This document shows, in pieces, positions 3,701-56,737 of a DNA stretch of 64,000 bases. The DNA is from Anadara kagoshimensis. Lineage: Eukaryota; Mollusca; Bivalvia; Arcoida; Arcidae. The notes beneath the pieces were generated by a model. That model was not told where the DNA came from and ran no database searches. It saw only the letters and a program-made list of their open reading frames with translations. How positions within the stretch are numbered: the stretch's first letter is position 1; each line of letters opens with the position of its first letter. The stretch is taken from contig CM037873.1 in assembly GCA_021292105.1 (NCBI GenBank), positions 9,649,489 through 9,713,488 on the forward strand, given 5' to 3'. The translations under genes were made by a program, and so were the position numbers.

Positions 3701-6700
3701 ACGCTGTGACCTGTTACTCTATCGTTAGAGGCAAAAATATGTAATCTGTATACGTTTCAGGCGGAGACATTCCCATATTACCAGAGCAAAACATGCTTTA
3801 AGTAGAGGGTCATGTTATTCAGTATACATATCTGTTTTTAATATATACTAGCATTCATATTAATTTTTGTATGTGTAATACTTATACATATACATACATA
3901 TTTTTTATTTTCGCAATCGACAATAAAATACATTATTTCAACAAAGAGTTAGGTTACATAAAATACTTGTTCAATAAACAACCTTGTGGATTCCAATAAC
4001 ACAAACGTGCAATACATATAACATGTATTCATTTTTTAAAAGTTGGTGTTTCCAAATACACAATTTAAATAAATTATATCCTTTACAGGGACAAAGACCA
4101 GTGTCGAAATCAAACTTAGATGAGTATGTGTAGCAAAGCATGCTTCAAAAGTAATTATTGCCGAATCATAACACTTTCAAAGCCTATACATTATAATATA
4201 TCTTAAAATGTCTTTCAATTTGGATTTAATCGGGAATCCTTTCAGACGTATAAATATGAACTTCAAATTCAAGTAGAATTTGATTATTAGATTAGGTCAA
4301 TTACAATATACAGTTTTACATCACAATCTTTAAAGCAAGTCAAAAACTTTGAAAACTAGGAAATTGAGTAAACCCTTGCACAAGGGAAATGAGGCCGCGT
4401 CATCCGTAAGGCGTAGCACCTCTTGTCTAGCTAACTTCATCTGTAGCATGTCATTGAACTATTTTCCATAATGCAAGATAACTTGGGATACAAAGCAAAT
4501 CAGCAAAATTGTGATGACGACCATAAAACTTTTTTTGTGGACCTTGATAAGCCCAGGCCAGTAAAGTCCTCAATTTATATTGTATATTTTTTGTATTATT
4601 CAGACTTTGTCAGAGAACGAATTTGATTCGATAGTTCATTATGGTTTCAACATGACAGGGTTCCAGTTAGTGAAGAACAATGATGAGCTCTTAAATGATA
4701 AGTTACTGGACAGAAGATACCAGAATCTATCACTGCATTTGAAAGGGCAAAGTATTCATGTATGATCCTTTATAAGTATCACCTTCACCTTATCTTTACA
4801 AAAGTCCTAAAACCTGGTATAAATTTAAAATAAAAGTTGTTTCGACTTGTTGTTTTAAAAATAAATCATCGGAATTCAAATCTGATACACAGTTGAACGT
4901 TTGTATGGTCATTGCCTGTAATTTTACTTTCATGTTCTGTTTATATGTCTGACAAAATATTATATAATTATTATCGTTTTTCAACGATTATATACAATGT
5001 GTCGGATATAAGGCCATATCCAATAGATACTATTATTAGGGTGTTTCTGTCCAAGACCATACCAATCTAAGCCACAGCAACATAAATACGTTATTACCTA
5101 ATTATATAAAGTATGTTGCGTGCATACTGTATCTGGTTTAGGTAAACACACTTTTTCCAAAATAATATATTCAAACATCTTAAATCTATTAATCGACAGA
5201 CAGACAGCAACATATTATTCCGAAGTTTGTGCGCTATAATAAAATGTTTCTAAATAGTTAGATTTACAATATGAATGTACCTCTCTTCGATGAAACACGC
5301 AGAAGCAATTTTATTGAAAGACAATTGGGGTCATGTCCCTTGATGTGTATCAATTTTCCCGCAATATTACGTACATCATGATCATGTCCCACACAGCCTG
5401 TCACGTAGTTATGTGAGATACGCTGATCTCGCATGGCAAAAAATCCAAGGGTTGAGACAAATATGGGTATAAAACATTTATTAAAAGAAAGAATTGTAAA
5501 TATAAAAAATGGCATTTCTGCTCATGGCATTTCAAAGGGTAATGCAAGATAGTGTGGCGCGTGCCAAATTCAAAATTAAGGGCTTCATCGAATTTGGCAC
5601 GCGCCACACTATCTTGCATTACCCACTGAAATACCATGATCAGAATGTCATCTCTTGAGATGTAAAATTTGGACATACAGTATACATGTACTATATTACA
5701 GTGTGAAGAAGCATTAGTTATAGACTCCATTGAAGTGTTTACCAAAGCCTTACATCGACTATTTGAAAACAAACCATCTATATACAATGCAATAGCGTCA
5801 CATGAGATATACCTTGACGATCAGACATCGCTGAAATGTGCTGATAAAAAGATAAAACACTCAAACAACGGCAAGGAAATCATGCAAATTATGAAAATGG
5901 TAATATTATATAATTATCTCTAATGACGACAGAATATATGAAATACGTATTGAATGTCATTTTATTTTGTTTTAAGAAAAGTTTTAAGTTGTTCAATGGC
6001 GTTATTGTTGATCTTTTATCATATCGTATTCAATTAGTCGATAGATGGGATTCCATAAAAAACTCTCCACTGCATCTAAACACTCATACCATGTCCAAAT
6101 ATCAGTAATCGTAATACATGTATTTTTGGTTTTAACGACGTTTACATGTATTAAGTTTATCGTTTTAACATTGACTGGTAAAAATGTAGTGTGTGTTCAA
6201 ACAGAGACGTATAAAAGGTTTTATATGTCTCTGGGATAAAAATAATAAGCATAAAATCTTAATTTTGTACCAAATTTCTTTCGCCTTCATACTTTACACT
6301 TGGATTTGCAGATCCTACAACGATTTTTATGCAGCTGGGTAATTTGTATTTTGCATGCAAGGTAATTCACATGGGTATACGGTTTATTATATCGGTTTTA
6401 CGTGTTAAAATGAATGACATTTCAAGGTTGGAAATTAGACATTTTCGTCTAATTATATATCCAAAGAATGTTAAAAGCATGGTTTTATTATATTTTCGTC
6501 ATCATCATAAAATCAAAATCTTTTTTAATCTTTAGATAAGCTGATTTTGTTTACACAGATGCAGTAACATGTCATCAAAATAACAGATACAAATACCCAA
6601 CTGACTTTCATTTAGAGACTTGTCATTTTATTAAGTTTCTTTAACGGCTTTATCACAACTTAAAAGCTTGAAGTGACAGAGGAAACAAAACTGACACTGA

Positions 6701-41234: not shown

Positions 41235-41866
41235 AATATAGTATTATTTTATTTGGATTTACATGTACATGAATACGACTTTGGTTCTTATAACGATATC
41301 TATGCGTGGTTACAAATAAGGGTTGGTTCTGTCTTTGACATTGTCACCACGGTACTTTCATTTTAAAATGAATATGTTACCTTATATATTCTTAACAACT
41401 TTATAAATTTACACATCGTTATTTATTTTGTAACCATTGTATGTTACTTTTACATCTTGGATTGCAATCTATACATCTGGTCTTACTAAAATAACGACCT
41501 TATACTTATCCCTCATTCTATTCATTGAGTTGATGTTTTTGTGGTCTGTTTCTACCGGACAGAGCTTTCTTCCAATTTGCTAGTATTTTGGTATTTATAT
41601 ATTGTTATTTTGTCATATTATCGCATATAATTTCATACAATTATTCTTTGGTACTAGTATATAATATTGTCATTTATTCAATTGTTTAATGTTTAATGTT
41701 ACAATAATAATTGCATTTAATGTATTATGAATTTTCTACTTCAATTTATCTTTGAATAAATGACATTTTCCTTCAGTGATGTTGTTTACTTGCTTTTTTA
41801 TCCTTATTTGCAAATATAGCTCGGATTCTGGCTTTGACCTTTATGTCTCATGGTTTCCGGTATGTT

Positions 41867-41904
41867 ATATGTGACTGCGACTAGGAAAATGGGTCCAGTT
41901 GCGC
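41867..41904 (+). repeat. Left terminal inverted repeat
   Basis: 38 bp; pairs with 47503-47540 with four mismatches. Core ggaaaatgggtccag is perfect. Confidence 0.8.
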
Positions 41905-41906
41905 TC

Positions 41907-41947
41907 TGACGTCAAACTGAGAAAATTGGACAGAAAGTCTGACGTCA
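41907..41947. promoter_or_regulatory. Two CRE-like TGACGTCA palindromes
   Basis: Perfect 8-bp palindromes at 41907-41914 and 41940-41947, each preceded by TC, 33 bp apart and about 550 bp upstream of the first ATG. TGACGTCA is the consensus CREB/ATF site; it could equally be a subterminal transposase-binding repeat. Confidence 0.45.
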
Positions 41948-42495
41948 GCAATGAGCAAATCATAATCAGTTGATAATTGCGCACCTTGCATTGATTGAAA
42001 ATTCAAGTTATAACGGAGTTCAAATTTGCCGTGTAACTAATTCAAAAACGTGTATTTTTTAAAACGTGTGCACTTTCTATATGTTAATTTAATTGTACAT
42101 TATTAAAATAATAATAAATCAGTATATTATAGATAATACAATAAATTTGCGCACACATTTAAATGAGTATAATCGCGATCGTATTTGTTGAGTATTTTAG
42201 TGAATTTTGCGATAACGATAAAGTATTTGCGTCATTTTTATCGCGCCTCTAAATCTCTATAGTATAGATAGTGATCGTATTTACTTTGGATTTTTAAAAA
42301 GATATTATCGTAGAATTTTAGTTCAGTAAAATCATAGTGTATTTATGAATGAAGAAAGGGGGAATAATTCATTTATTGTAAACGGAAGTTTGACGGGAGT
42401 TATCTTGTTGTTAGTGTAAACAAATGGCGGGAGTTATGACAGACGATAATGTTGACAAATCAATGGTGATGTGAATTTATTTTAATTTATTCATC

Positions 42496-42759
42496 ATGAG
42501 CCAGGAAAGTCAGGCAACTTCTGTTCCGTGGGAAATCTTGTCCTTAAACGACGAAACATTCATTGATGAACTATTGAAAGTTGATGAACTTTATTTTTCC
42601 CGTGACTTGCCAGATTCAGTTAGTGTCGAAAGTGATGACAGTTTTAACTATGAATCGGACCTAGATTCTGAAATTGAAAATGAAATCGGTGCCCTTTTGG
42701 ACCATTCTGATGTTGATAAAAGGGAATATCTTGTTCAGGAAAATTCAAAACAGATACAT
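42496..42759 (+). CDS. Transposase-like gene, exon 1
   Basis: 88 codons from MSQESQATSVPWEILSLNDE, rich in Asp and Glu, to a strong donor cat|gtaagt. An acidic start like this is common in this family. Start chosen as the first ATG after an upstream stop. Confidence 0.6.
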
Positions 42760-43732
42760 GTAAGTGTAATTTTTTTAATGGCCAACCATGTATCCTTGGT
42801 ATAAACTTTACAACTATACTAGACCACAGAGATATGTGTAGAGAGATGTCTAGGGAGGAACTTGATTTGGTGATAAAAGCTGAACTTATATCTCATAGAC
42901 GATCAGGGGAACATACAACAGCCAAAAGACATAAAGTAAAGGAGAGAGAAAGACCCCATCAGGAGTATTTCCTGTATGGCCATAGAGTATGTAGAACAAC
43001 TTTCTGTTTTGCCCACTCAGTTGAAAAAAAAAGTTACAGGCTATAGGTCGGTCATTGGATCAGGAGGGGTTAAAGGCAAGAACGCATAAAAATGCTGGAT
43101 GTAAGCCTGCCAACAGCTTAACTTTTATCGATCGAGAAAGGATAAAAACTTTTATATGCTCATATGCTCGAGACAACGCCTTACCTTTGCCTGGGAGATT
43201 ACCTAATTTTAGAAACTCTAATGTTTTACTGCTTCCATCAGACAAAAGTGAAAGTGACATACATGGTTTATATGAGGAAGTGGCCAGTGAAGTAGAATAC
43301 AGAAGTGTCAGTTTAAGAACATTCCAAAGACTCTGGCATGACCTATGTCCACATGTAACAATTATGCAGCCATGTACAGATCTGTGTCAAAAATGTCAAG
43401 TATATTCTCACAAAATTTCAAATAGTGGTGGCTTGTCAGAAGAAGAAAAGCAAAACATTATTGAAGAGTATAACATGCATGTGACCTTAGCTAAAGAACA
43501 AAGAGATTATTATAGGACCCAGGTCAATGACAGTAAGGACAAATTTGCCAATTTGGATGAGAACTACAAAAAGTCAGGTAAATAACTTTATTTTTAAAAA
43601 AAACACTCAAATTTGACAAATACTTTGTCCATTGAAATTTTCAAAATATATAATTTGGGACCAACTTTAGAATTACTGTTAAAATTAATGTCAATATTTT
43701 ACATTTTTTCAAAACTGTTACTGCAGATAAAT

Positions 43733-43768
<36 letters not shown>

Positions 43769-43811
43769 AATGATAAAAAAAGCTTCAATATTTACTTGAC
43801 AAATTGTTGAT

Positions 43812-43875
<64 letters not shown>

Positions 43876-45174
43876 TTTTACCAATGTATCTGAAATAATT
43901 TGTGTTGATTCTGACATACCCTACATTGATTCAATTACAGGGAATGTACCAGGATCTATTGAAACAAAACTGCATTACTCATGGGACTATGCACAGACTG
44001 TTCATTACCCACACCATGCTCTACAGACAAGTCCTATATATTTCAAGACTCCAAGAAAATGCCATGTGTTTGGAATGTGTTGTGAAGCTTCAGGTAACTT
44101 GTCATTAATAATATTATACAAAATTTTTTTACAAACTTTTTGTTACAGTACATGACTGACATAATTGCTGGATAAAAAATTCATATTAGACATAAAATTT
44201 GGTCAGGTCCTAACCAAGCTCATTTTCCATAGCTTTATCAATTAATTTCTTAATTTCATTTCATAGAAATTAATTCATGGTAAAACTACATCAGCATAGC
44301 TTACTGATACAGATATAAGACTAGCTTGATTTGCTTCCTGATACAGATATAAGACTAGCTTGATTTGCTTCCTGATACAGATATAATACTACATGTAGCT
44401 TGATTTGCTTCCTGATACAGATATAAGACTAGCTTGATATGCTTCCTGATACAGGTATAAGACTAGCTTGATTTGCTTTTTATTATTATTAAAACTTATT
44501 TCTTATCTAATCACTTTTTCAAGAGTGTCATAATTTTATGAGTAAATTACTTATTACTATTTAACAAGTGAAATATCAATTTAATCTTGTTCTTGTAGGA
44601 AAGCAAACATTTTACCTCATCGATGAAGCAGAAAGTCAAGGGAAAGGTCCAAATTCAGTCGTCAGTTTTGTTCATCATTACTTCAGAACATATGGATATG
44701 GTGAAAAAGATGTCTGTGTGCACTTTGACAATTGTGGGGGACAAAACAAAAATAATGTGGTGTTATGGTATGGCATGTGGAGAGTAATTGTTGGTAAGTT
44801 TATATTTAGAATTTGATATAATTAATTATTTAAATTTATCCCTATTAACTTGTAACATGCCATACTGTCTTTTAAAAGCACACATAACACATTCATTCTT
44901 AACAATATGATTAATGGTAAATTCCATGTATAATCACAAAATATTTTATATTTTAGTTTAAATGTATCACACATTGTTTTGAGATCCAGTTATTATCATA
45001 ACACTGACAGTATATCAGCATAGCCATAAAACTTTTATTTTGTAATACTTGCAGGCTTACATAGAACATTGGAATATTCCATGATGATTGCAGGACACAC
45101 TAAGTTTGAACCAGACTGGCATTTTGGTATATGGAAAATGAAATGGAGAAACTCTTCTGCTGAAACCATGGAAC

Positions 45175-45213
<39 letters not shown>

Positions 45214-46120
45214 ACATTGTATTTTGTCTCTTGACATACTGATTAATTTAGCATCAATCATCAAATGTGATCACTTATTAAATAACATTAAAGTATATAT
45301 ATGATTACACATGGATTTGTTAGCATTAAAACTAGATGTCATGACAACATTATTAGTATCTCATTTAGAGGTTTTGTGTTTCATTATTGACAAAATAGTC
45401 ACTGTAGTTATAATATGATACCAACTGTAACTGCACATAGGCACAGATAATTATTTATCTTACATCACATGGCTTGTGATATATTTATGTTTTCAAAATA
45501 ATCTTGACTGGTATACCACTTTAATCAATCAATTTCAAATGAGCATTTAAGGCCTTTTTATGTTCCTGTTTTTGTCTTATCTTTAACATGTTCAATGGAT
45601 CATAGAAAAAGTGAAATGGCTAAATTTTAAGACTTGTGACTGTTCTACTCAGCTAAACTTTTTTTTCACATTTGTTTTATTTCAGATAGCTGAAACGGTA
45701 GACAACTCTAGTCGAAGTGGACATAATGTTCATCAACTGATTAGTGATGGTGACAACTCTGTCACATTTCATGATTGGAAGACATATCTGAAACAGTTTT
45801 TCAAACCACTTAAACATATTTCACATTTTCATCATTTTCTGGTTTCATGTGACCAACCTGGAGTTGTGTTTTGTAAAGAAAATGCTACTTCTGAGCAGTT
45901 AATGTTTAATCTGTTGAAAAACAAATCTATATTACTAAGTATAAATGATTCAGTAAATGCATTATCTGTAAAAAGTTTAGATCCTGCAAGACAATGGTAT
46001 CTTTATGAACACATAAGAGATCACTGTCTGCAAGATGAATCCAAAGACAAAACTTGTCCAAAGCCATGTGTTCCAAAGGCAGAAATTAAATTAGATTCAA
46101 AACATAAATCAAAAGAATAA
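42496..46120 (+). CDS. Transposase-like protein with SWDYAQ / DNCGGQNKN / GHTKF motifs (six exons)
   Basis: Exons 42496-42759, about 42830-43577, 43941-44093, 44599-44793, 45055-45176 and 45686-46120; the last four junctions are canonical and in frame. Domains in order: acidic N-terminus; a CTDLCQKCQ cysteine motif; HYSWDYAQ; GKGPNSVVSF; VHFDNCGGQNKNN; AGHTKFEPDWHFG; a helical C-terminus. Such proteins are widespread but uncharacterised in invertebrates (often labelled DUF7869, from memory). The conserved Asp in SWDYAQ and FDNC and the acidic TKFEPD suggest an RNase-H/DDE-type fold; this is inference. The position between matched TIRs supports a transposase role. Two breaks: exon 1 (phase 0) does not join exon 2 in frame, and an A9 run at 43024-43032 shifts frame inside exon 2 (7 or 10 A would restore the family reading). 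So it is either recently disabled or affected by sequence errors. AATAAA overlaps the stop. Confidence 0.72.
42830..43577 (+). CDS. Transposase-like gene, exon 2 (frameshifted)
   Basis: Acceptor near accacag. Frame one reads REMSREELDLVIKAELISHR to VCRTTFCFAHSVEKK; frame two, from the A9 run, reads LQAIGRSLDQEGLKARTHKN and LPLPGRLPNFRNSNVLLLPS, then the cysteine motif to YKKS and donor tcag|gtaaat. The two parts belong to one conserved protein. Confidence 0.65.
43736..43874. repeat. (CA)n and (TA)n(TG)n microsatellites in intron 2
   Basis: (CA)n 43736-43764, then (TA)n 43814-43834 joined to (TG)n 43835-43874. The CA and TG runs are complementary and could pair across 70 bases. Confidence 0.93.
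43941..44093 (+). CDS. Transposase-like gene, exon 3
   Basis: Phase-1 exon from caattacag to cag|gtaact with KLHYSWDYAQTVHYPHHALQ and PRKCHVFGMCCEASG. The SWDYAQ Asp is a candidate catalytic residue. Confidence 0.78.
44306..44478. repeat. 34-bp minisatellite, five units
   Basis: Units of ctgatacagatataagacta plus gcttgatttgcttc; the third has a small insertion (catgta). In intron 3 of the transposase-like gene. Confidence 0.9.
44599..44793 (+). CDS. Transposase-like gene, exon 4
   Basis: From ttcttgtag to gttg|gtaagt: KQTFYLIDEAESQGKGPNSV and VCVHFDNCGGQNKNNVVLWY, the family's most conserved block. Confidence 0.8.
45055..45176 (+). CDS. Transposase-like gene, exon 5
   Basis: From acttgcag to gaacag|gtgtgt: LHRTLEYSMMIAGHTKFEPD and WHFGIWKMKWRNSS. 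The donor GT is the first unit of a (GT)n microsatellite (45177-45207). Confidence 0.78.
45177..45207. repeat. (GT)n microsatellite at a splice donor
   Basis: About 15 GT units directly following exon 5. Confidence 0.95.
45686..46120 (+). CDS. Transposase-like gene, exon 6
   Basis: 145 codons from tatttcag to TAA 46118-46120: IAETVDNSSRSGHNVHQLIS, LKQFFKPLKHISHFHHFLVS, and DPARQWYLYEHIRDHC before a Lys-rich end. Confidence 0.78.
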   Translation: MAETVDNSSRSGHNVHQLISDGDNSVTFHDWKTYLKQFFKPLKHISHFHHFLVSCDQPGVVFCKENATSEQLMFNLLKNKSILLSINDSVNALSVKSLDPARQWYLYEHIRDHCLQDESKDKTCPKPCVPKAEIKLDSKHKSKE

Positions 46121-46384
46121 TAAATTCATAAATTCTGATAACTTGTGTCTCTTGTATGTAATATAGATAATTTATTTTACCAAAATCCACTGTATAGAAG
46201 TTGTGGTTTTAAGCCAAGGTATATCTTCCAAAAGTTAAAAAACTTAAGACATAATGCTTCCCTTCCTCAATTCAGGAACTAGTTAAATTAAATAGAAACA
46301 ATGATATGCATTTTTTTAATATAAATTATGTTAGTTTGGTAGACTAGCATTGTAAAAATAGTTTTAGTGTAGAAGAGTAAGAAT

Positions 46385-46560
46385 GTATGACACCCCAGTC
46401 AAGATTCTTTCACATATATAAAGACTTTATCTTTTGGAATGGTAGAGGATAACTGAGTGTCCAAAGAAAACCAACAACCTTCAGCAAGTAAACTGACAAA
46501 CATTTTCACAATAGGATGTGCCAGGGTGGAAATTAAACCAGGGAGGTAAGAGGCACTTTT
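46385..46560. repeat. R2 dispersed repeat inside the transposon
   Basis: gacaccccagtcaagattct, ttcacatatataaag and aaccaacaaccttcagcaag mark the best-preserved R2 copy in the window. Confidence 0.55.
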
Positions 46561-47160
46561 ATTCTAGGTGGTGTGCTTTAGAAAACTTGTCAGTCTGGGT
46601 CCACATAAAGTCACTACATACAGTCATGAGGAATTCATTACAAATGACAATAAAGTACTGTGAAATTAAACCCATATAAAGAACATACACCATATTCATC
46701 ATGATATTGTTGATGGAAGATGCTTGTATACTGCTCTGAGAGGAGGGGTTTGGTGGCTTTTGAATAAAAAGTTGTTTTCTTTTACACTTAATGCAATAGA
46801 ATTAGACACATGTTTACTTATATCAGACTGGCAGAATGTGCTGTAACATTAACCTTGGAATAGCTCGGTTGGTTTGATTGGATAGAAAAAGAAGAACAAA
46901 ACAATTGCACCCAATAGCTAAATTTTACATACCGGTAATTTTAGTTACCATAATGAGTTTTTTACCTGAATGTAACTTTATGGCTTAATTGAGTAATTAA
47001 CTAAGCATCATAAAGTAAAACTTCTGTGTAAAAATGAACCCAATGAAAAATGCAGGTAAATAAAGTTTTTACGACACGTCTAGTCCAAATATTAAGTCAT
47101 TACTTTGGAAAATTTCTTAAATCATGCATTTTTCTCCGTTTTCTCACATTTTCCTGTTGC

Positions 47161-47174
47161 GTTACCATGGTAAC
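47161..47174. promoter_or_regulatory. Perfect X-box-like palindrome
   Basis: GTTACCATGGTAAC fits the RFX consensus GTNRCC-N(0-3)-RGYAAC. About 370 bp inside the right end of the transposon. Confidence 0.35.
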
Positions 47175-47502
47175 GGATATTTGGTTTAAACAAAAATTTA
47201 ATTTGATATACTGAGATCCAAAATTTGAAGGGGTTAATATTTTAAAATTGTATTGCTAACACATCAGAAATTGCATTGAAATCAAGTTTTAGATAATGCA
47301 ATAAAAACTGCAGAATTTCTGTCAATTTTTGTAGAAGTTTAAAGAGCGTATCATATTTTTAAACTTTTTTTTAAAAAAAAACGCAGAATAGTAAATCCTT
47401 CATAACTTTAAGAATAATTGAGATATCGACCTAAAATTTTCAGGTTATGTTATTCATTCTTAGTGGTATTGAAAAATGCAAAAATCTGAAAATGTGATTT
47501 TT

Positions 47503-47540
47503 GCGCATCTGGACCCATTTTCCCAGTCACGGTCACATAT
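47503..47540 (-). repeat. Right terminal inverted repeat
   Basis: Contains ctggacccattttcc, complement of the left-end core. Confidence 0.8.
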
Positions 47541-47572: not shown

Positions 47573-47675
47573 TTCAAAAACAAACCTACGTATCATGTCA
47601 AAATCACAATCCAGAAGCAATTAGAAACTTTGAAACTGACAAATTAGGTTTAACACGTGGACTTAAATACCTAAG
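47573..47675 (-). repeat. R1 retroelement tail copy, inverted
   Basis: Begins caaaaacaaacctacgtatc, then aaatcacaatccagaagcaa and aggtttaacacgtggactta. Starts about 30 bp beyond the transposon's right end. Confidence 0.7.
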
Positions 47676-48055
47676 TTACATAAAAATCAACAAAGTATCT
47701 GTACTTAGGTACATAATTAGGCCTACGATGCTTCAAACAGGGATAATAATGTCAAAATCACGTGATAACAATAATTAATTTGCTGCCGACATTAGCTACA
47801 CGGATCCTTAACAGACGTAACACCTACGTAAATGTAAGACTTAATTAGGGTTAACAAATTACTTAGCAGTAATTAGTTGATACAAAATTTGCATTTCATG
47901 TTGCCTATGACAATATCTCTGTGTCCCCTGGAAAGTTAATTAAACAATCATTATGCAATTGAGCATAATAACTATATATAAAAACTCAAAATGTATAATA
48001 AATTTCCATTTATATGCATCAATACTGAATGGAAGAACACTTGCCAGTGATAAAA

Positions 48056-48507
48056 ATGAAAATTCTCTTAAGTATCTATGTTATTCTTATATTTACACTT
48101 TCAATGTTTTATGCTATGAATTCTTCCAACACGAGAAGTAATAATCAAAGTGGATTCAATCAAGAAATTAATGCTACAACAGTTCATAAAACAAGAAATG
48201 AAGCAACAAAAAATCCAGTGGAAGAACTCCAAGTAAAGGGAAAGAAATTGTTACCATCGCTCTGTCGTAAACCGTTTTTTGAAACTAGATCGGCGCGCAT
48301 GCATACAAAACTAACGAAAAGAGATATTCCCTTAAAAGACATTTGTTCTAAAAGTTCCTCGTGTGAATATAATGAGAAAATGGATGTCCCAAATTGTTAC
48401 TGTGATACTGCATGTTTAGAATTCAAGGATTGTTGTTATGGTTTCTATGGACACAATGCATCAACTGAATTTTCTGATATTATTTTACACAAGAAGAAAA
48501 GTCACCT
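48056..48507 (+). CDS. Receptor exon 1: signal peptide and SMB-like module
   Basis: Met at 48056 starts a hydrophobic signal sequence; an upstream in-frame Met at 48029 gives a longer, less typical start. The SMB-like module has the Cys spacing with C-Y-C-D and D-C-C. Coding runs straight into the inverted-repeat insertion and meets a stop after KKKSHL. Confidence 0.65.
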
Positions 48508-48690
48508 TTAAGGATCCTTAAAGCCCCCTTAAAGACTCATTAAATGGGGCTTTAAGGATCTTTAAGGGGTCTTTAAGGACCTTAAATGTGTCTTTAAGGT
48601 CTCTTTAAGGACATCCTTAAAGATCCTTAATGGAACTGAAATTTTAAGGATCTTTAAGGCGGCTTTAAGGATCTTTAAGGATTCGTTTAA
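48508..48690. repeat. Left inverted array
   Basis: About fifteen ctttaagg or ccttaaag words in both orientations, so the array could fold on itself as well as pair with the right one. Confidence 0.8.
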
Positions 48691-49016
48691 TAAACACAGA
48701 AAACAAATTTCTTTACATTTTTTTAAATTTTAAATTTATAAAAATGTGATGTTAAATATAATTATTTAACTTATTATACTCTTACACTGTTTTTATTTTA
48801 TTTTATTGTTTTATTTAAAAAAAAATTATTTTATTTTATTTTTTTTTTATTTATTTATAAAATTTGTAAATTTATAAAAAATAAACTTATTTTTTTAATC
48901 ATTTTTCTTTATCAATTTATACTAATTTTGGTTGTTTTGCAAGTAGTCCTGAAATCATAAATAAAGAAGAACACATTATTTAACATCATTTATTACAAAT
49001 TTACTTATCTAATTTC

Positions 49017-49100
49017 GCTCGCAGCGGGACTTGAACTCACTACCCTTAGTTCCCCAGATCCTTTCCTGACTCTACATCCTTATCCATTGGGCCACGGAAG
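49017..49100 (-). repeat. tRNA-like SINE head
   Basis: Minus strand: tggcccaatggataaggatg (A box, tRNA-Arg-like) and gagttcaagtcccgc (B box), but too long between the boxes for a cloverleaf. Confidence 0.6.
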
Positions 49101-49228
49101 ACATGAATATGCAATATATATTTGTAAACTATATTAGTACCCGGTAGCCTAAGGATCACGTGACTAGCTCTAAATCTTTCAGATTTAATAATAAAATATA
49201 TAAATAAAATGTTTTACTCCATTTAAAA

Positions 49229-49236
49229 AATATTTT

Positions 49237-49262
<26 letters not shown>
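49229..49262. repeat. (TTA)n microsatellite
   Basis: About eleven trinucleotide units. Confidence 0.9.
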
Positions 49263-49267
<5 letters not shown>

Positions 49268-49776
49268 GCTCTTTCATTCTTGAGAGGAATATTTTTTAGG
49301 TTAATTTAACTGACTTAAGATTTCTGATCAAAGGAAGACGGGCATATCAAACCTTTACCTGTAATACACTTATTTATCTGACTGGCAAACATCACTTTTA
49401 TAAAGATCAATTATCGATCAGATATCCATTCCTATTTGTATAATCTTAATCATACTACTGCTTTTTTATTAAAATATTTCAATAATTCTTGAAATTAAAA
49501 CAATAATTTTAAGTAAATTTTATTTAAAATTGTCTTTTATAATTTAGTTACATTTTTGTTGTAATACCAATACTTATTTCCTTGTTTGATAAACAACTAT
49601 AATATTGTACCAGCGACATTTAATAATCTGTACAAAATGGAAGGACGAGTTTGAATGATAATTTGTTATAATCTTAATTTATCCTTCAAAATCTCGCATT
49701 TAACTTAAATGACTGTTTTATGAGGGAAACAGTGAGAATGTTAAATAAAATAATTTCAGAAATTAATTCAATTCAC

Positions 49777-49802
49777 GGTGAGAGAGAGAGAGAGAGAGAG
49801 AG
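49777..49802. repeat. (GA)n microsatellite
   Basis: About thirteen GA units. Confidence 0.92.
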
Positions 49803-49948
49803 AAAAGGGGGTGCACATGTTAAACATTATAATAATAGTACTCTTTACAAATTGAAACAGTAGAACTAGCGACATTTCCTACTGTTATAAATCTGGTAAA
49901 ACTGTTTAAAAAAAATATTACCATTGTCATACTCAAAAGCGGATCCGA

Positions 49949-50080
49949 GTGAATAGTCACTACCCTTTTTCAAGTTTTGGATCAGACCCGGCCAGAGACC
50001 AAACCCGCAACCTTCCACTTCTGGAGCGGACAGTCGACACTCTACCGAGCTGGCTGCTACCGAAGTGGAAGGTCTCCTTC
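49949..50080 (-). repeat. tRNA-derived SINE-like repeat
   Basis: Minus strand: agctcggtagagtgtcgact (A box), gcgggtttggtctctggccg (B-box-like), then gtctgatccaaaacttg. Same family as 9050-9236. Its head is duplicated with the following DNA (next entry). Confidence 0.6.
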
Positions 50081-50499
50081 CTCCCCTTTTTTCAACACTT
50101 GTTTAAAATTATCTATATGACATCCATCTGAACATACTAGTTAATTTTATTATATTAATTAAATTATTACATTATTGTACTAAATACTCAGTATAATGGT
50201 GCAACACACAAGAATCCTTTTTACCAGAAAATAGCACTTATAGCACCGGCCAGAGACCAAACCCGCAACCTTCCACTTCTGGAGCGGACAGTCGACACTC
50301 TACCGAACTGGCTGCTACCGAAGTGGAAGGTCTCCTTCCTCCCCTTTTTTCAACACTTGTTTAAAATTATCTATATGACATCCATCTGAACATTCAAGTT
50401 AATTTTATTATATTAATTAAATTATTACATTATTATACTAAATACTCAGTATAATGGTGCAACACACAAGAATCCTTTTTACCAGAAAATAGCACTTAT
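49990..50499. repeat. 258-bp tandem duplication
   Basis: Units from 49990 and from 50248 are about 98% alike, both starting ggccagagaccaaacccgca and ending ccagaaaatagcacttat. Confidence 0.9.
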
Positions 50500-50705
50500 C
50501 ATTTTAGATTTGTTCCATAAAGCCAATAACGGGCGGATAGAATAAAAAGTCAAATAAGTTGGAATTTATCTATTAAAACCAATTAAAAATTAAAAAATGT
50601 ACAAAAAATGTACAAAAATTGGGACTTTTATATGAAAATAGGACTTTGCGCTATAAAAATATACAAAAAGATAATCTTATGTGCTAAAAATGTACCATTC
50701 TAATT

Positions 50706-50707
50706 AG

Positions 50708-50747
<40 letters not shown>
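50706..50747. repeat. (TC)n microsatellite
   Basis: TC run with one interruption. Confidence 0.93.
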
Positions 50748-51459
50748 GGGCCCTGACCCTTGGTCCCAATATTCATTTATGATTAATGGAATTACTCTTT
50801 ATGGAATCTGTCCTTGAATAAGAATTATTTTTGAAGTACTGATAACAGCCCAGTTTAAAATTCATGCTTTCTGACAAGACAGAAGTGTCTTAATTAGTAT
50901 TACTAATCAGCTAATTAACGTCATTTACTAATACTAACTGGGTTCTTTCATGCCTAAGTGATCAGGTAAATAACATTATCACCTAAGACTGGTCAGCACT
51001 ACCTGAATTCTTTCATACCTCAGCGAACTAGTACATTACATCATCCTCTGATTGCAATTACCTACCTGTACACGAATTAATTAATCAGTACCACTAATTA
51101 ACTGGTCCATCCACTGGTTGCTTGACAATTTGCGGTAAGCGAGAGGGAAAAAAGTCGGAAAGCAGGGGCAAATGTTGGGGTGCCCCCCTCCCCGCCCACC
51201 TACCTCCATCCCGCTGGATCTGACACTGCATGATTTCCCATATTTGAATTATTTTTAAACAGAACGAAAAAAGTACACGACACTGCAAATCCAAATTCTC
51301 TCTCCTCTCTCTCTCTTTCTCTCCTAGATATGACAATATTCCAACGTCAGCTGCAGACTGCTAATATTTTTTTGTGTTTGAACAACACCATTTGATTTAT
51401 TTCTGGAGAAAACTTTTTTACTTTTTTCTCAACATAATCAGGATAACGGGATAGCAGAG

Positions 51460-51760
51460 TATAGAGTTTCATTCCTGTGTCAAGATTATTTCACTTTTAT
51501 CATTATTTGATTCAATGAATAAGAATTCTAGAATGGCCAAGAATGTAAAACCTGAGCGAACTGACAAATTTTCTGAGATTATGGCCTGTCCCAGTTTAAT
51601 ATTTTGTCAGTTTGTAACAAAATTGTATAGTCTTGTGTAGAGACTTTAAGTTCAAGGATAGTGAAAGAAATCGAAGTGCATTGAGATTAGAACCAATATT
51701 CGACAAGCGAGTTTTCTCACACTAGATTTTCCCTAAAGATGTGAACCAAGACAGTGAGAT
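51460..51760. repeat. R2 dispersed repeat, diverged
   Basis: gtgtcaagattatttcactt near the start and cgacaagcgagttttctcac with cacactag near the end match R2; the middle is expanded. Confidence 0.45.
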
Positions 51761-52047
51761 CAAGATTTTGCTAGTTATATTGAGGCTGTCAGTTCTAGGA
51801 TTATTAATGAAACGGAAACACACAGAGAACCCCATTTTCGGCAAGAAAACAAATTAAAACGATAATTAACTTAAAATAAATGCCGATGATATAAATGTTT
51901 TTTTCTTTTAATTGTTTCATTATAAATCATAACTTTATTAGCCCGAAATTCGTTAACTTGGATTGCGGACCTATTCTATGATTAGAAAATCATGCTTATA
52001 GTTTTCGCTTGTGGGAAAAAGTTCCGATAGACAACTCTCAGCTCCGA

Positions 52048-52048
<1 letters not shown>

Positions 52049-52093
<45 letters not shown>

Positions 52094-52384
52094 CTCTCTC
52101 TCTCCATAAACAACTTGATCAGAGAATACAAGTTATTTTACTGGATCGATCGAGAAATTATTACATGAAGAAGATAGTCCAAATGAATCTATCAGTTTTG
52201 TCTATGAAATTGTGGTTTATTTATTTATTTATTTATTTACATGAGTGTTTATTTATTTATTTGATTATTTATTTATTTATTTATATGATTATTTATTTAT
52301 TAATTTATATGATAATTTATTTATTTATTTATTTATTTATTTATATAATTATTTGATTATTTATTTATTAATTTATATGATAAT

Positions 52385-52415
<31 letters not shown>

Positions 52416-52910
52416 TTAATATGAATGCACATTTCAAGGTCATGAAATAAGAAATATCAAATAATGGTAGTTTAAAAACTGATGATGTACAAGTCTTCGC
52501 TCTGTCCTCTCTCTCTATCTCTCTCTCTCATATTTCATATACTTATTAAAGTTTTTAAAAATATTATTTATTTATTTATTTATTTACACACAAATAACAA
52601 TTGGTAAAAAGTATCTAAAGTATCCCTAACATTACTACTCATGTAGATTAATCATCAGATTCCATTAAAATTCAAATCCATCTAGGTAATTAAAGAGATT
52701 AACAACACACGGTAAATTTTTCAGGTAGAATATACTATCGTCTGGTTAAAATGAGTTTGAATTTGCTTCTGTTATCAATTAGTTAGGTAAGTTGTTGATG
52801 AGATACCGGGGAAATGTTGATGATCATCAATTAGGAACCATGATCTGTTTATTACCTATGGGCATAAATCCATAATGATAAATAGTCAAAACTACACTTT
52901 TTTAGTTTAA

Positions 52911-52947
<37 letters not shown>

Positions 52948-53136
52948 AAATAAGAAGTTGTACATTGAATCAATTTAGAGCTGGTACATAATAATCGGAG
53001 CAGTATAGATTATAAATAAAAATAAATAAATAAATAAATTAATTAATTACTTTGAAAACAATCATGAAATTTTATCACCGGACATTTATTTTTAATCGCG
53101 TTTTTCTCCAATTATTTTTGTGTAATATATACCAAA

Positions 53137-53192
<56 letters not shown>
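52049..53192. repeat. Cluster of (TC)n and (TTTA)n / (AAAT)n microsatellites
   Basis: (TC)n 52049-52104; (TTTA)n 52218-52417 with interruptions; short TTTA runs near 52565; then the opposite-strand phase AAAT/AATA at 52907-52946, 53013-53041 and 53132-53192. TTTA and TAAA runs are inverted relative to each other and could pair. Confidence 0.92.
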
Positions 53193-53261
53193 GGTGCATC
53201 CTTAGCCAATTCAGGGTGGTTGAAAAAACACCATTATATCATTTAAATACATGTGTATGTC

Positions 53262-53456
53262 AGGGTGATCCTTAAAGATCCTTAAAGCCGCATTAAAGAT
53301 CCTTAAAATTTCAGTTCCATTAAGGATCTGTAAGGAAGCCTTAAAGATCCTTAAAGAAGATGGTGGTCCTTAAAGGGGTCTTTAAGGAGGCTTTAAGGAT
53401 CTTTAAGGACATCTTTAAGGATCTTTAAGGATTCCTTAAAGACCCTTAAAGGAGGG
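53262..53456. repeat. Right inverted array
   Basis: Mirror of the left array, ending ccttaaagacccttaaagga just before receptor coding sequence resumes. Confidence 0.8.
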
Positions 53457-53463
53457 ATTTGGT

Positions 53464-54135
53464 CTTGTGTTATATAAAGATTACATAGAATGTCGTCTTG
53501 ATATAATACCTGGTAGATCTTCATATACTAAAGGATACTGGATGGTCATGAAATGTCCAGAGAATTACAAGATAGATGCTGTGTCTGTACGATGCGGTAA
53601 TACAACTAGAGAAGATATCCCAGTTACAGATGAAAAAGGTATCGTATATGGAAATGTTTACTGTGCCCGCTGTCATGGAGCGATCAATTATATTCCATGG
53701 ACTGTAAGACTATCAATTATAGGCAGATCATGTTACAATTATTTGCAAAAGGACATTCTCTTTCAAAAGAATCTTTTGTCCAAAAGTAATATAGGACAAC
53801 TTCAAGATAATTCATGTGCATTCATATATATGTCTCCTAGAGGAAGGATACGACCCCGTACCTGTTTCACAACTTTAAGCGTGTCACCAGCTAAAGAAGA
53901 AACTGGAAGTTGCCAAAACCATCTTAACCCGGTCATAGTTGACTTTAAAATAATATACAGAAACATTTATTGTGCTGATAAATGGAATTATCTGAAATGT
54001 GATATTGATGGATTTCCGTATGACGATGGCAAAAAGTCTCAAATATATCCACTGACTATTCTCTTTACTGTACAACTTCCACAATTTGATGAAGAAAGCC
54101 TTTGCAGCCCCTACAATCAATTGGATGACAAAACG
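53464..54135 (+). CDS. Receptor exon: Cys-rich ectodomain
   Basis: Open from the edge of the right array to donor acg|gtaata. Contains YWMVMKCPENYKIDAVSVRC, GIVYGNVYCARCHGA and several paired Cys. The coding start cannot be fixed: either an acceptor at ttatataaag or readthrough from the interrupted exon. Confidence 0.65.
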
Positions 54136-54263
54136 GTAATACAATAAACATTCTTAATGTTCCATAGTCTGTTTTGAGATTGTTTTAAATGTTTTGATTC
54201 ATTTCTTTTAATTCTATTTCCAAAATACGAGATTATCTCTTTTGACATGTACTATTTTTATAG

Positions 54264-54405
54264 AATTGTGCGAATGAAAAACTTGACGAAAGAGCCAAAC
54301 AAGACAAAACGTTAGACTCCTGCTTTCAAAATTGTCTACTTTTACTGTCAAGTGAGATCATATCAATTGATGTAGTTATAACACTTTATAAGGGCCCCAA
54401 GGGTG
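54264..54405 (+). CDS. Receptor exon: short Cys segment
   Basis: From atttttatag to ggtg|gtaaat: NCANEKLDERAKQDKTLDSC to VVITLYKGPKG. The end phase does not fit the next exon. Confidence 0.45.
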
Positions 54406-55054
54406 GTAAATAAATAATAAGAACAATATATTAACCCAAATTGTGATGTAGTTTTAGTTTGTGTCGGCTTTTTCCGAGTCTATCCTTTCATATATTAAGC
54501 TGATAGATACAGTCGAACATCCCATGCATCCCTTAGACCTCTTTAAAGGATCATTTGCTTTTCAAGGCCAGTTAAATTTTATCCAAATAGTTGTTAAATA
54601 GAGATATTTGAACCTTTATATAAATGTCACCTGCCCATAAAAGCCACTGTTAGTGGTTTCCTTAGGTGGCCTTTATAGACAGGTTTGAATGTTTATGATT
54701 AGGATCTGAACTTCATTATTGAAACAGAATATACACAGAAACGTTTTAACTCCTTTTGTTAGAAAAATGCAATTAAATGCTTAAATCTAAAAATGTACTA
54801 TTCTGCTGTTTGGTCTTCAATATCTGTGTAAACAATTATTTTCTTTTTCAGAAACGGTAATACTTTGATTTAATTGCAACTTGCAATTTTTTGCCGATTT
54901 TCTTTTGAATTTCGCCGCTTCCATAAGCTTTATTATTACGATGTACAAACTAATATAACTTTTTATCTCGCTTTATTGAGAACTTGGTTAGAAATATGCT
55001 ACTTCAATATATGAATATTGAATCTATTTTACGATAGTTTGGTTTGCATTTCAG

Positions 55055-56474
55055 GGAATGTGTTTTCCTAACACATGTGAAGAAGATACAGATACCTGTA
55101 AAGTGGGAACAAACGATATGTTTATACGGAATTACGTTCTTAAAATAAACTTGTTATTAGCAAGCGACAGTATTATTGATGCAAATATTTCCCGTGGTGC
55201 TTTGTCGATGTTTACGACATGTTTACCACATCAACAATATGATCTAATGTTTAGACCATATTCATCTATCAATAAGACATTTTTATATACATTGGATTCA
55301 AATATCAATGGCGGAGTTAAATCGGTAATTAATGCAACATTTGCATTCGTTTTCCGTAAAACTGTCAATAAAAAGACATTAACAAACTTAAAATTGAGAA
55401 TGGAGAAGATGGAATTGAACTACACTAGATCGTCTCCATCAATTCCGAAAGAAAATCTAATCAAGATATGGAGAATTTGGAATCCATTAGATCTACATCT
55501 AAGTTCGGAGTTTACAAATCTTGAATGGGCAGGGTCATCTATGACATTAAAATACCTTGACTCCCTACAAAATTTAGATGATTTACCTATATTGGATAAT
55601 ATACCAAGCAAATGTCATATTGAGATGGTAGATGTGAGGGAGACAATCAATGGCAAATGGCGCTACATCAATAATTTTTACTTCCAGATGGAAAACATTA
55701 ATATGTCGAAACCTTCAATTGAGAACAACCGGCGTAATTTCAGCAAAAATGACAATCAGTTTGCTCAAGGTCTTTTGACTTATATTACTTTAAGTATTTC
55801 ATGTGGAGCGGTCGTTCCAACAATTATTGTCCATCGATATTTAAAGCTAGTATCCTCTACACCTGGGATGATCACAGAGCAAATACTTATATTATCACTG
55901 AGCTTTGGTATCAGTTTTATGACTGGGATCACTCCTAAAACAAATTATATTCTGTGTTTCAGCATTGACCCATTATCTTATTATAAGCTTTTTTACATGG
56001 ATTAGTATTTTTGTCTGTCATACACTCAAACAGCTTCGAAATTTAAAGAAAGCTCATAATAATTCACCTCTCAATAATCGCCGATTTCCCAAGACATATT
56101 TTGTTGTTGGTTATTTGGGTCCTGTCTTTATGATAACACCCCCTGCAATCATTGAACTATGTGGATGTACAAATATAAAGATAGGATATACCGATTTCGC
56201 TTGTTTCCCTACAGGTTATCCCGCAAATCTAGTTGTAGTTGTTTTACCAATAATGTTATTTGTATTGATTCATTTACTCTGCTTGTGTTACGCCGGTTGG
56301 TGTCTTTACAGAGTGAGAAATGATTTACCTCAGTTTGGCTTAAGGACATCAAGATCGTATGTTAGTGTGTATATTAGGTTGTGCCTAATTTCAGGTTTGT
56401 CATGGGGTTTGGGTGTTCTATCAGAGGCTATGGATAGTGATCTAATTCGTTATTTCTTCATTCTACTATCTGGC
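55055..56474 (+). CDS. Receptor exon: stalk and helices 1-7 (frameshifted)
   Basis: Acceptor gcatttcag, then GMCFPNTCEEDTDTC, a stalk with several N-glycosylation sequons, and TM1-TM2 in one frame. From about 55945 the conserved C-V-S-A-L-T-H-Y start of TM3 and TM3-TM7 lie in the +1 frame. Stops at TGA 56475-56477. Coding resemblance continues after it (HGLIFTLCIVTTETFRQLF) to TAA 56631-56633. Confidence 0.65.
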
Positions 56475-56737
56475 TGACATGGGTTAATATTCACGTTATG
56501 TATTGTCACTACAGAGACTTTTAGACAATTATTCAAAGAACATGTATTAACATCCAAATCAACAGCGCAAATAGACATGGAGATGGTCCAGAATGATCAT
56601 GAAACTCAATCGAATAACGATGTCCCTGCCTAATATATTTATGTCTTAGTCATTGTAACAACAAGACAGTTATAGGATAAAAAGTTTAGATGTATTAGAT
56701 TACCCTCACACTGATGTATTGACATCATGGTCCTCTA

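Follow-up and report, generated by a model that had tools for sequence, protein, structure and literature searches.

Sola transposons are described as encoding transposases of the DDD type (three conserved Asp), as making 4-bp target duplications and as being known from bacteria and metazoa (PMC10741241). For Sola2, 12–21-bp inverted ends and AT-rich AWWT duplications such as ATAT, AAAT and ATTT are reported (PMC3627910), and curated bivalve Sola1 elements have a mean length of 5445 bp (PMC10294476). An integrase-like core is reported for IS481EU and IS3EU/GingerRoot (PMC10045372). Here we describe an element at positions 41867–47540 of a 64,000-nucleotide stretch of the genome of the bivalve Anadara kagoshimensis (contig CM037873.1; hereafter the window), in which 38-bp inverted ends enclose a gene for a protein of the Pfam family DUF7869. 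This element is almost certainly a cut-and-paste transposon with its own predicted DDD transposase. For the whole explanation, in which it is a frame-broken copy of such a transposon and its DUF7869 transposase belongs most likely to Sola, we estimate a probability of about two in three.

Inverted ends and copies across the genome

The two 38-bp ends match at 34 of 38 positions, whereas 200 shuffles of the paired 400-bp end regions gave no 38-mer with more than 27 matches, and a repeat search lengthens the inverted pair to 45 nt at 84% identity. Two queries, 101 bp from the left end and 121 bp from the right end, were searched against the source genome of the window (1.115 Gb, 36 contigs). Of 95 left-end candidates 40 were scored; all matched, and 27 of the 39 matches outside the window start at the equivalent of 41866–41869. 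Of 124 right-end candidates 40 were likewise scored, and among the 39 non-window matches the start lies precisely at 47540 in 19 and no more than 3 bases away in 30. An exact 29-base left-end pattern had 38 matches in the genome versus 0 for its reversed control. The 20 best left-end matches after the window were fetched, giving 21 copies with the window itself, and a clean left/right pair was present in 15 of these 20 loci (16 pairs including the window). The right ends of L011 and L015 fall beyond the fetched stretch or on its border, at sites known from the right-end search; L019 combines two left ends with a single right end; and no right end was found within reach of the fetched stretch in L020 and L023. 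A chance inverted repeat is rejected by the shuffles, the copy number and the paired ends with differing flanks. The initial annotation, made from the letters of the window, had noted these ends and named a lack of pairs elsewhere as a refuting result; the ends hold, and pairs do occur elsewhere.

Counting the window, 15 of the 16 clean pairs have termini that read ATAT-GTGAC...GTCAC-ATAT. The sole clean pair with another target, in L024, reads ACAT-GTGAC...GTCAC-ACAT; because ACAT is not palindromic, it represents a direct duplication and not a part of the inverted repeat. Lone ends carry AAAT (L020 and L023) and AATT (the right end of L019), consistent with an A-N-N-T rule. As A and T occupy the outer positions in every case, duplicating 4 bp or only the middle 2 bp yields identical strings, and the element borders are 41871–47536 under the 4-bp reading and 41870–47537 under the 2-bp reading. 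This corrects the boundaries given earlier: the ATAT that closes each end is target duplication, either in full or for its two central bases alone. The bases outside ATAT or ACAT differ between the flanks in all 16 clean pairs, and a k-mer test for a longer duplication, a rough check only, found no shared 9-mer in any of them. L012 alone carries, in the flanks of 1776 and 5289, an 18-bp near-repeat (ATCATAGAATTAT.AGTG) that is not in register with the ends of the element and may be a tandem host repeat or an older event.

A 104-bp tandem array (2.9 units, 97% matches) flanks the copy in L009 on its right. Two further units of this array read GTCACTATATCAGCATTATTAG, and the element there splits GTCACT-ATAT...ATAT-CAGCATTATTAG, so that the array units likely provide an empty site that, as judged from the sequence, agrees with the element boundaries. 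On the left side of L009, however, the match to the array units covers only about 10 bases (ATACGTCACT).

DUF7869 coding matches are present in 5 of the 21 copies, namely the window, L009, L010, L011 (where about 3.4 kb interrupts it) and, in degraded form, L015, and absent from the other 16 copies bearing the left end. L009 and L010 align over their full length with the window copy at 97.3% and 97.7%; these copies are 5.6–5.7 kb long and each holds one five-exon DUF7869 gene. Fourteen gene-less elements of 2.1–5.4 kb (L012–L014, L016–L018, L019, L021, L022 and L024–L028) have no frame longer than 115 codons, and L012 is internally related to the other 13. Gene-less copies have the left end in common with the coding element over about 81–85 bp and the right end, where in reach, over 165–182 bp (element positions 5510–5674 at 87–91% in eight copies, and 179–182 bp in three more); in L013 and L024 the common right end extends to 403 bp at 74–75%. 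These 14 elements are probably non-autonomous partners of the coding element.

The DUF7869 gene and its predicted product

The gene has five exons (Table 1), and not the six first proposed: exon 1 is a single open frame in L010, so the first intron of the six-exon model is unneeded. All eight splice sites are identical among the window, L009 and L010. Compared with L010, the window copy is broken by two 1-bp frame breaks, one near 42750 that is absent from both L009 and L010, and one in an A-run near 43025 whose length is the same in the window and L009 and differs in L010. L009 also deviates at the start of exon 1, and the open exon 1 of L010 (370 codons) lacks about four residues of a conserved stretch. 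L009 and L010 differ at 9 of 1976 exon positions versus 56 of 3567 positions in the introns and outer parts (Fisher p 1.2e-4). Exons are likewise less diverged between the window and L009 (p 9e-4), with no significant difference between the window and L010 (p 0.10). A rough pN/pS is 0.28 for L010 versus L011 and 0.53 for L010 versus L015. The low exon divergence and these ratios together fit selection on the protein between insertions. No second gene was recognised among the open frames listed for the 5.6-kb copies.

DUF7869 is the only Pfam family above cut-off for the protein, and otherwise only sub-cut-off noise appeared at E <= 1, with no match to a mariner-type DDE domain or to rve. No match was found in NCBIfam or among PDB sequences, and literature word searches found no paper mentioning DUF7869 or DNCGGQNKN. 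One search gave 641 relatives at E <= 0.001, and many DUF7869 proteins are named only uncharacterized in databases. Two AlphaFold models predict the RNase H order of elements, with an Asp at each of the three expected positions, and the closest matches of these models in structure comparison are retroviral integrases and DDE transposases. The three Asp are conserved among relatives, with 41 residues between the second and the third, and no C(2)C lies between D475 and D517 in alignment A2. The prediction that SWDYAQ, DNCGG and TKFEPD form a DDE/D-like core therefore gains support from both the models and the conservation, which place their Asp at core positions of an RNase H-like predicted fold. 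The DUF7869 protein is most likely the transposase of the element, as predicted from these models.

Bacterial relatives between inverted ends

A pattern search of a prokaryote genome collection gave 31 matches, 13 of which encode relatives, and inverted ends are present in 6 of the 13 (Table 1). These six bacterial elements are 2055–2719 bp long, each has one frame of 635–668 codons, and no other frame of at least 150 codons is present apart from an antisense one of 176 codons in L046. Four of the six start with ATGGGG or AAATGGGG. In Desulfocicer vacuolatum DSM 3385, a single 657-residue open reading frame lies between perfect 43-bp inverted ends. An rve integrase-type open reading frame (PF00665; L045:3193-3723), which we read as IS3-like, adjoins this element, runs into its left inverted end and stops there. 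The bacterial relatives look like simple insertion sequences and, under the favoured explanation, are counterparts of the animal element.

No inverted ends were found in L049, L050, L051, L053–L056 and L061, although several of these loci are short or truncated at a contig border. Of 86 genomes in the family to which Desulfocicer belongs, 2 have a match, Desulfocicer itself included. Four genomes were searched for copies, and each has a single relative. For two of the bacterial proteins NCBIfam gave no family above cut-off. Among viral contigs there were 8 pattern matches, none of them a relative, and plasmids gave no match.

Table 1. Features of the window element (window coordinates) and inverted ends of bacterial relatives (length).
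Feature	Position or length	Strand	Remarks
Left target-site duplication ATAT	41867..41870		if 4 bp are duplicated; TA at 41868-41869 if 2 bp
Left inverted end	41867..41904	+	38 bp including duplication; first ~81-85 bp common to gene-less copies
Exon 1	42496..43577	+	start MSQESQ; C-x-C...C cluster; DLCxxC; uninterrupted frame in L010
Exon 2	43941..44093	+	SWDYAQ, first Asp; fold position by alignment to AlphaFold model
Exon 3	44599..44793	+	DNCGGQNKN, second Asp; fold position by alignment to AlphaFold model
Exon 4	45055..45176	+	GHTKFEPD, third Asp; fold position by alignment to AlphaFold model
Exon 5	45686..46120	+	C-terminal part and stop
Right end region	47376..47540	+	~165 bp, common to gene-less copies
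Right inverted end	47503..47540	-	38 bp including duplication
Right target-site duplication ATAT	47537..47540		from clean pairs and likely empty site
Inverted ends, L044	40 bp		97.5%
Inverted ends, L045	43 bp		100%
Inverted ends, L046	39 bp		87%
Inverted ends, L047	30 bp		96.7%
Inverted ends, L048	39 bp		100%
Inverted ends, L052	61 bp		95%

Other DUF7869 genes in the genome

A DUF7869 family search of the same genome gave 88 exon-level matches among 146 candidates; six anchor places of these matches were read as three families (B, C and E) of two copies each, to which L043 is added. For family B no left limit could be set, and in L032 no inverted counterpart of the right end is present. Family E has no inverted ends in the end windows. 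Family C (L033/L037 and L034/L038) is a 5.6-kb unit in copy C2 and reaches 7.0 kb with an insert in C1; AAAAGGGCCCTTAG recurs in inverted order at its two ends, over all 14 bp in C1 and with 13 of 14 matching in C2, offset by about 7 nt, and resembles AAAATGGGTCC inside the ends of the window element. In the first copy of family C, TGTTTCAAACATAACACAAAT is found in both flanks.

L043 contains an intronless frame on the minus strand (L043:840-2999) of a distant DUF7869 branch, with 720 codons in the fetched part and the motifs DNCTGQNRN and GHTQMECD. Among the matches of the family search are four places with a 1019-codon frame at one and the same score, so that this branch is perhaps a second, intronless mobile family.

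Superfamily assignment and alternative explanations

Compared by published descriptions only, the window element resembles Sola in its three conserved Asp, AT-rich target, short inverted ends and comparable size, and in the presence of relatives in both bacteria and animals. The superfamily is probably Sola (Sola1 or Sola2), in which case DUF7869 would be a Sola-type transposase that carries no such label. Two points are new here, the inverted ends around bacterial relatives and the likely identity of the element with the known Sola superfamily, and the second of them makes the element less novel. Several observations weigh against this explanation or its extension. The ACAT of L024 departs from the AWWT of Sola2, the duplication is possibly 2 bp here as opposed to the 4 bp given for Sola, the window copy has a broken frame, and the weak or missing inverted ends of families B, C and E speak against generalising the explanation to every DUF7869 gene. 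A rather unlikely alternative keeps the same transposon and transposase role and makes the DUF7869 elements a superfamily of their own, with the ANNT target and the DDD triad convergent with Sola. The lone Pfam family, the blank NCBIfam and PDB sequence searches, the literature searches and a 2-bp duplication would all suit it, whereas the target pattern, the three Asp, the size near 5.5 kb and the occurrence in bacteria and animals match Sola as published. Its fullest form, a non-Sola superfamily of bacteria and animals that chooses ANNT targets and includes a new family of bacterial insertion sequences, appears slightly more doubtful still; if true, it would account for a large unannotated gene family.

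Other known systems fit less well. Retroviral integrases have Glu as the third acid where the DUF7869 protein has Asp, and the protein also differs from them in having no PDB sequence match and in belonging to a transposon with inverted ends. Mos1 (Tc1/mariner), IstA and TnsB differ in that Pfam gives DUF7869 only and that the protein is larger, with other N- and C-terminal parts; Tc1/mariner is further rejected by the lack of a mariner-type DDE domain in Pfam at E <= 1. The TTAA target duplication of piggyBac and Kolobok is ruled against by ATAT or ACAT in 16 of 16 pairs, and the duplication of about 8 bp made by hAT, Zisupton, Merlin and P elements by the differing flanks beyond ATAT or ACAT in the same pairs. 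IS481EU and IS3EU/GingerRoot resemble the element in their integrase-like core; they differ in that IS481EU duplicates about 4, 15 or 25 bp and IS3EU 6 bp, with TNT..AYA or TA..TA ends unlike those of the window element, and the DUF7869 protein is without an rve match in Pfam.

That DUF7869 is carried as a passenger or accessory gene, with another, unseen transposase mobilising the element, seems very improbable. The 16 of 21 copies with these ends and no DUF7869 coding match would accord with it, as would the other DUF7869 genes of the genome without clear inverted ends, but the 5.6-kb copies yielded no further recognisable gene, the protein has a predicted integrase/transposase fold with conserved Asp, and the six bacterial elements of 2.06–2.72 kb contain, between their inverted ends, no second long frame on the strand that encodes it. 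The predicted fold with three Asp and the bacterial relatives standing alone between inverted ends make the transposase role well supported; the paired ends and the likely empty site agree with this role, which the initial annotation had inferred, and no result contradicted it. An ordinary host gene, with inverted ends arising by chance or segmental duplication, has a gene-like exon–intron structure on its side. We reject it, with hardly any probability left to it, on the copy number, the ends on many contigs with differing flanks, the shuffles at no more than 27 of 38 and the likely empty site.

Proposed mechanism and implications

Under the Sola-type transposon reading, 41867–47540 would be a frame-broken copy of a recently active cut-and-paste transposon whose only recognised gene encodes the transposase, a protein of about 660 residues. 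Its N-terminal Cys-containing, helical part, which may bind the ends, would be followed by the RNase H-like core with the three Asp. Transposase molecules would pair the 38-bp ends and excise the element, presumably by catalysis at this core, and the excised element would be joined at an ANNT target, mostly ATAT, of which 4 bp (or the central 2 bp) are duplicated. The enzyme probably also moves, in trans, derivatives that keep about 85 bp of the left and about 165 bp of the right end.

Where DUF7869 proteins are transposases, they should be masked and excluded from host gene counts, and a search could be made for possible domesticated copies. The bacterial elements, with one frame in 2.1–2.7 kb, would offer a simple system for studying the enzyme and its target choice.

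Sequences beside the element

In the right flank of the element, window positions 47574–47664 belong to a repeat of about 93 bp that recurs, whole or in part, in L042, L041, L028, L011, L026, L025, L024 and L034 at 74–86%. Further downstream, positions 48029–56477 hold long frames that, to judge by their motifs, resemble an animal gene of the somatomedin-B/adhesion G-protein-coupled receptor type.
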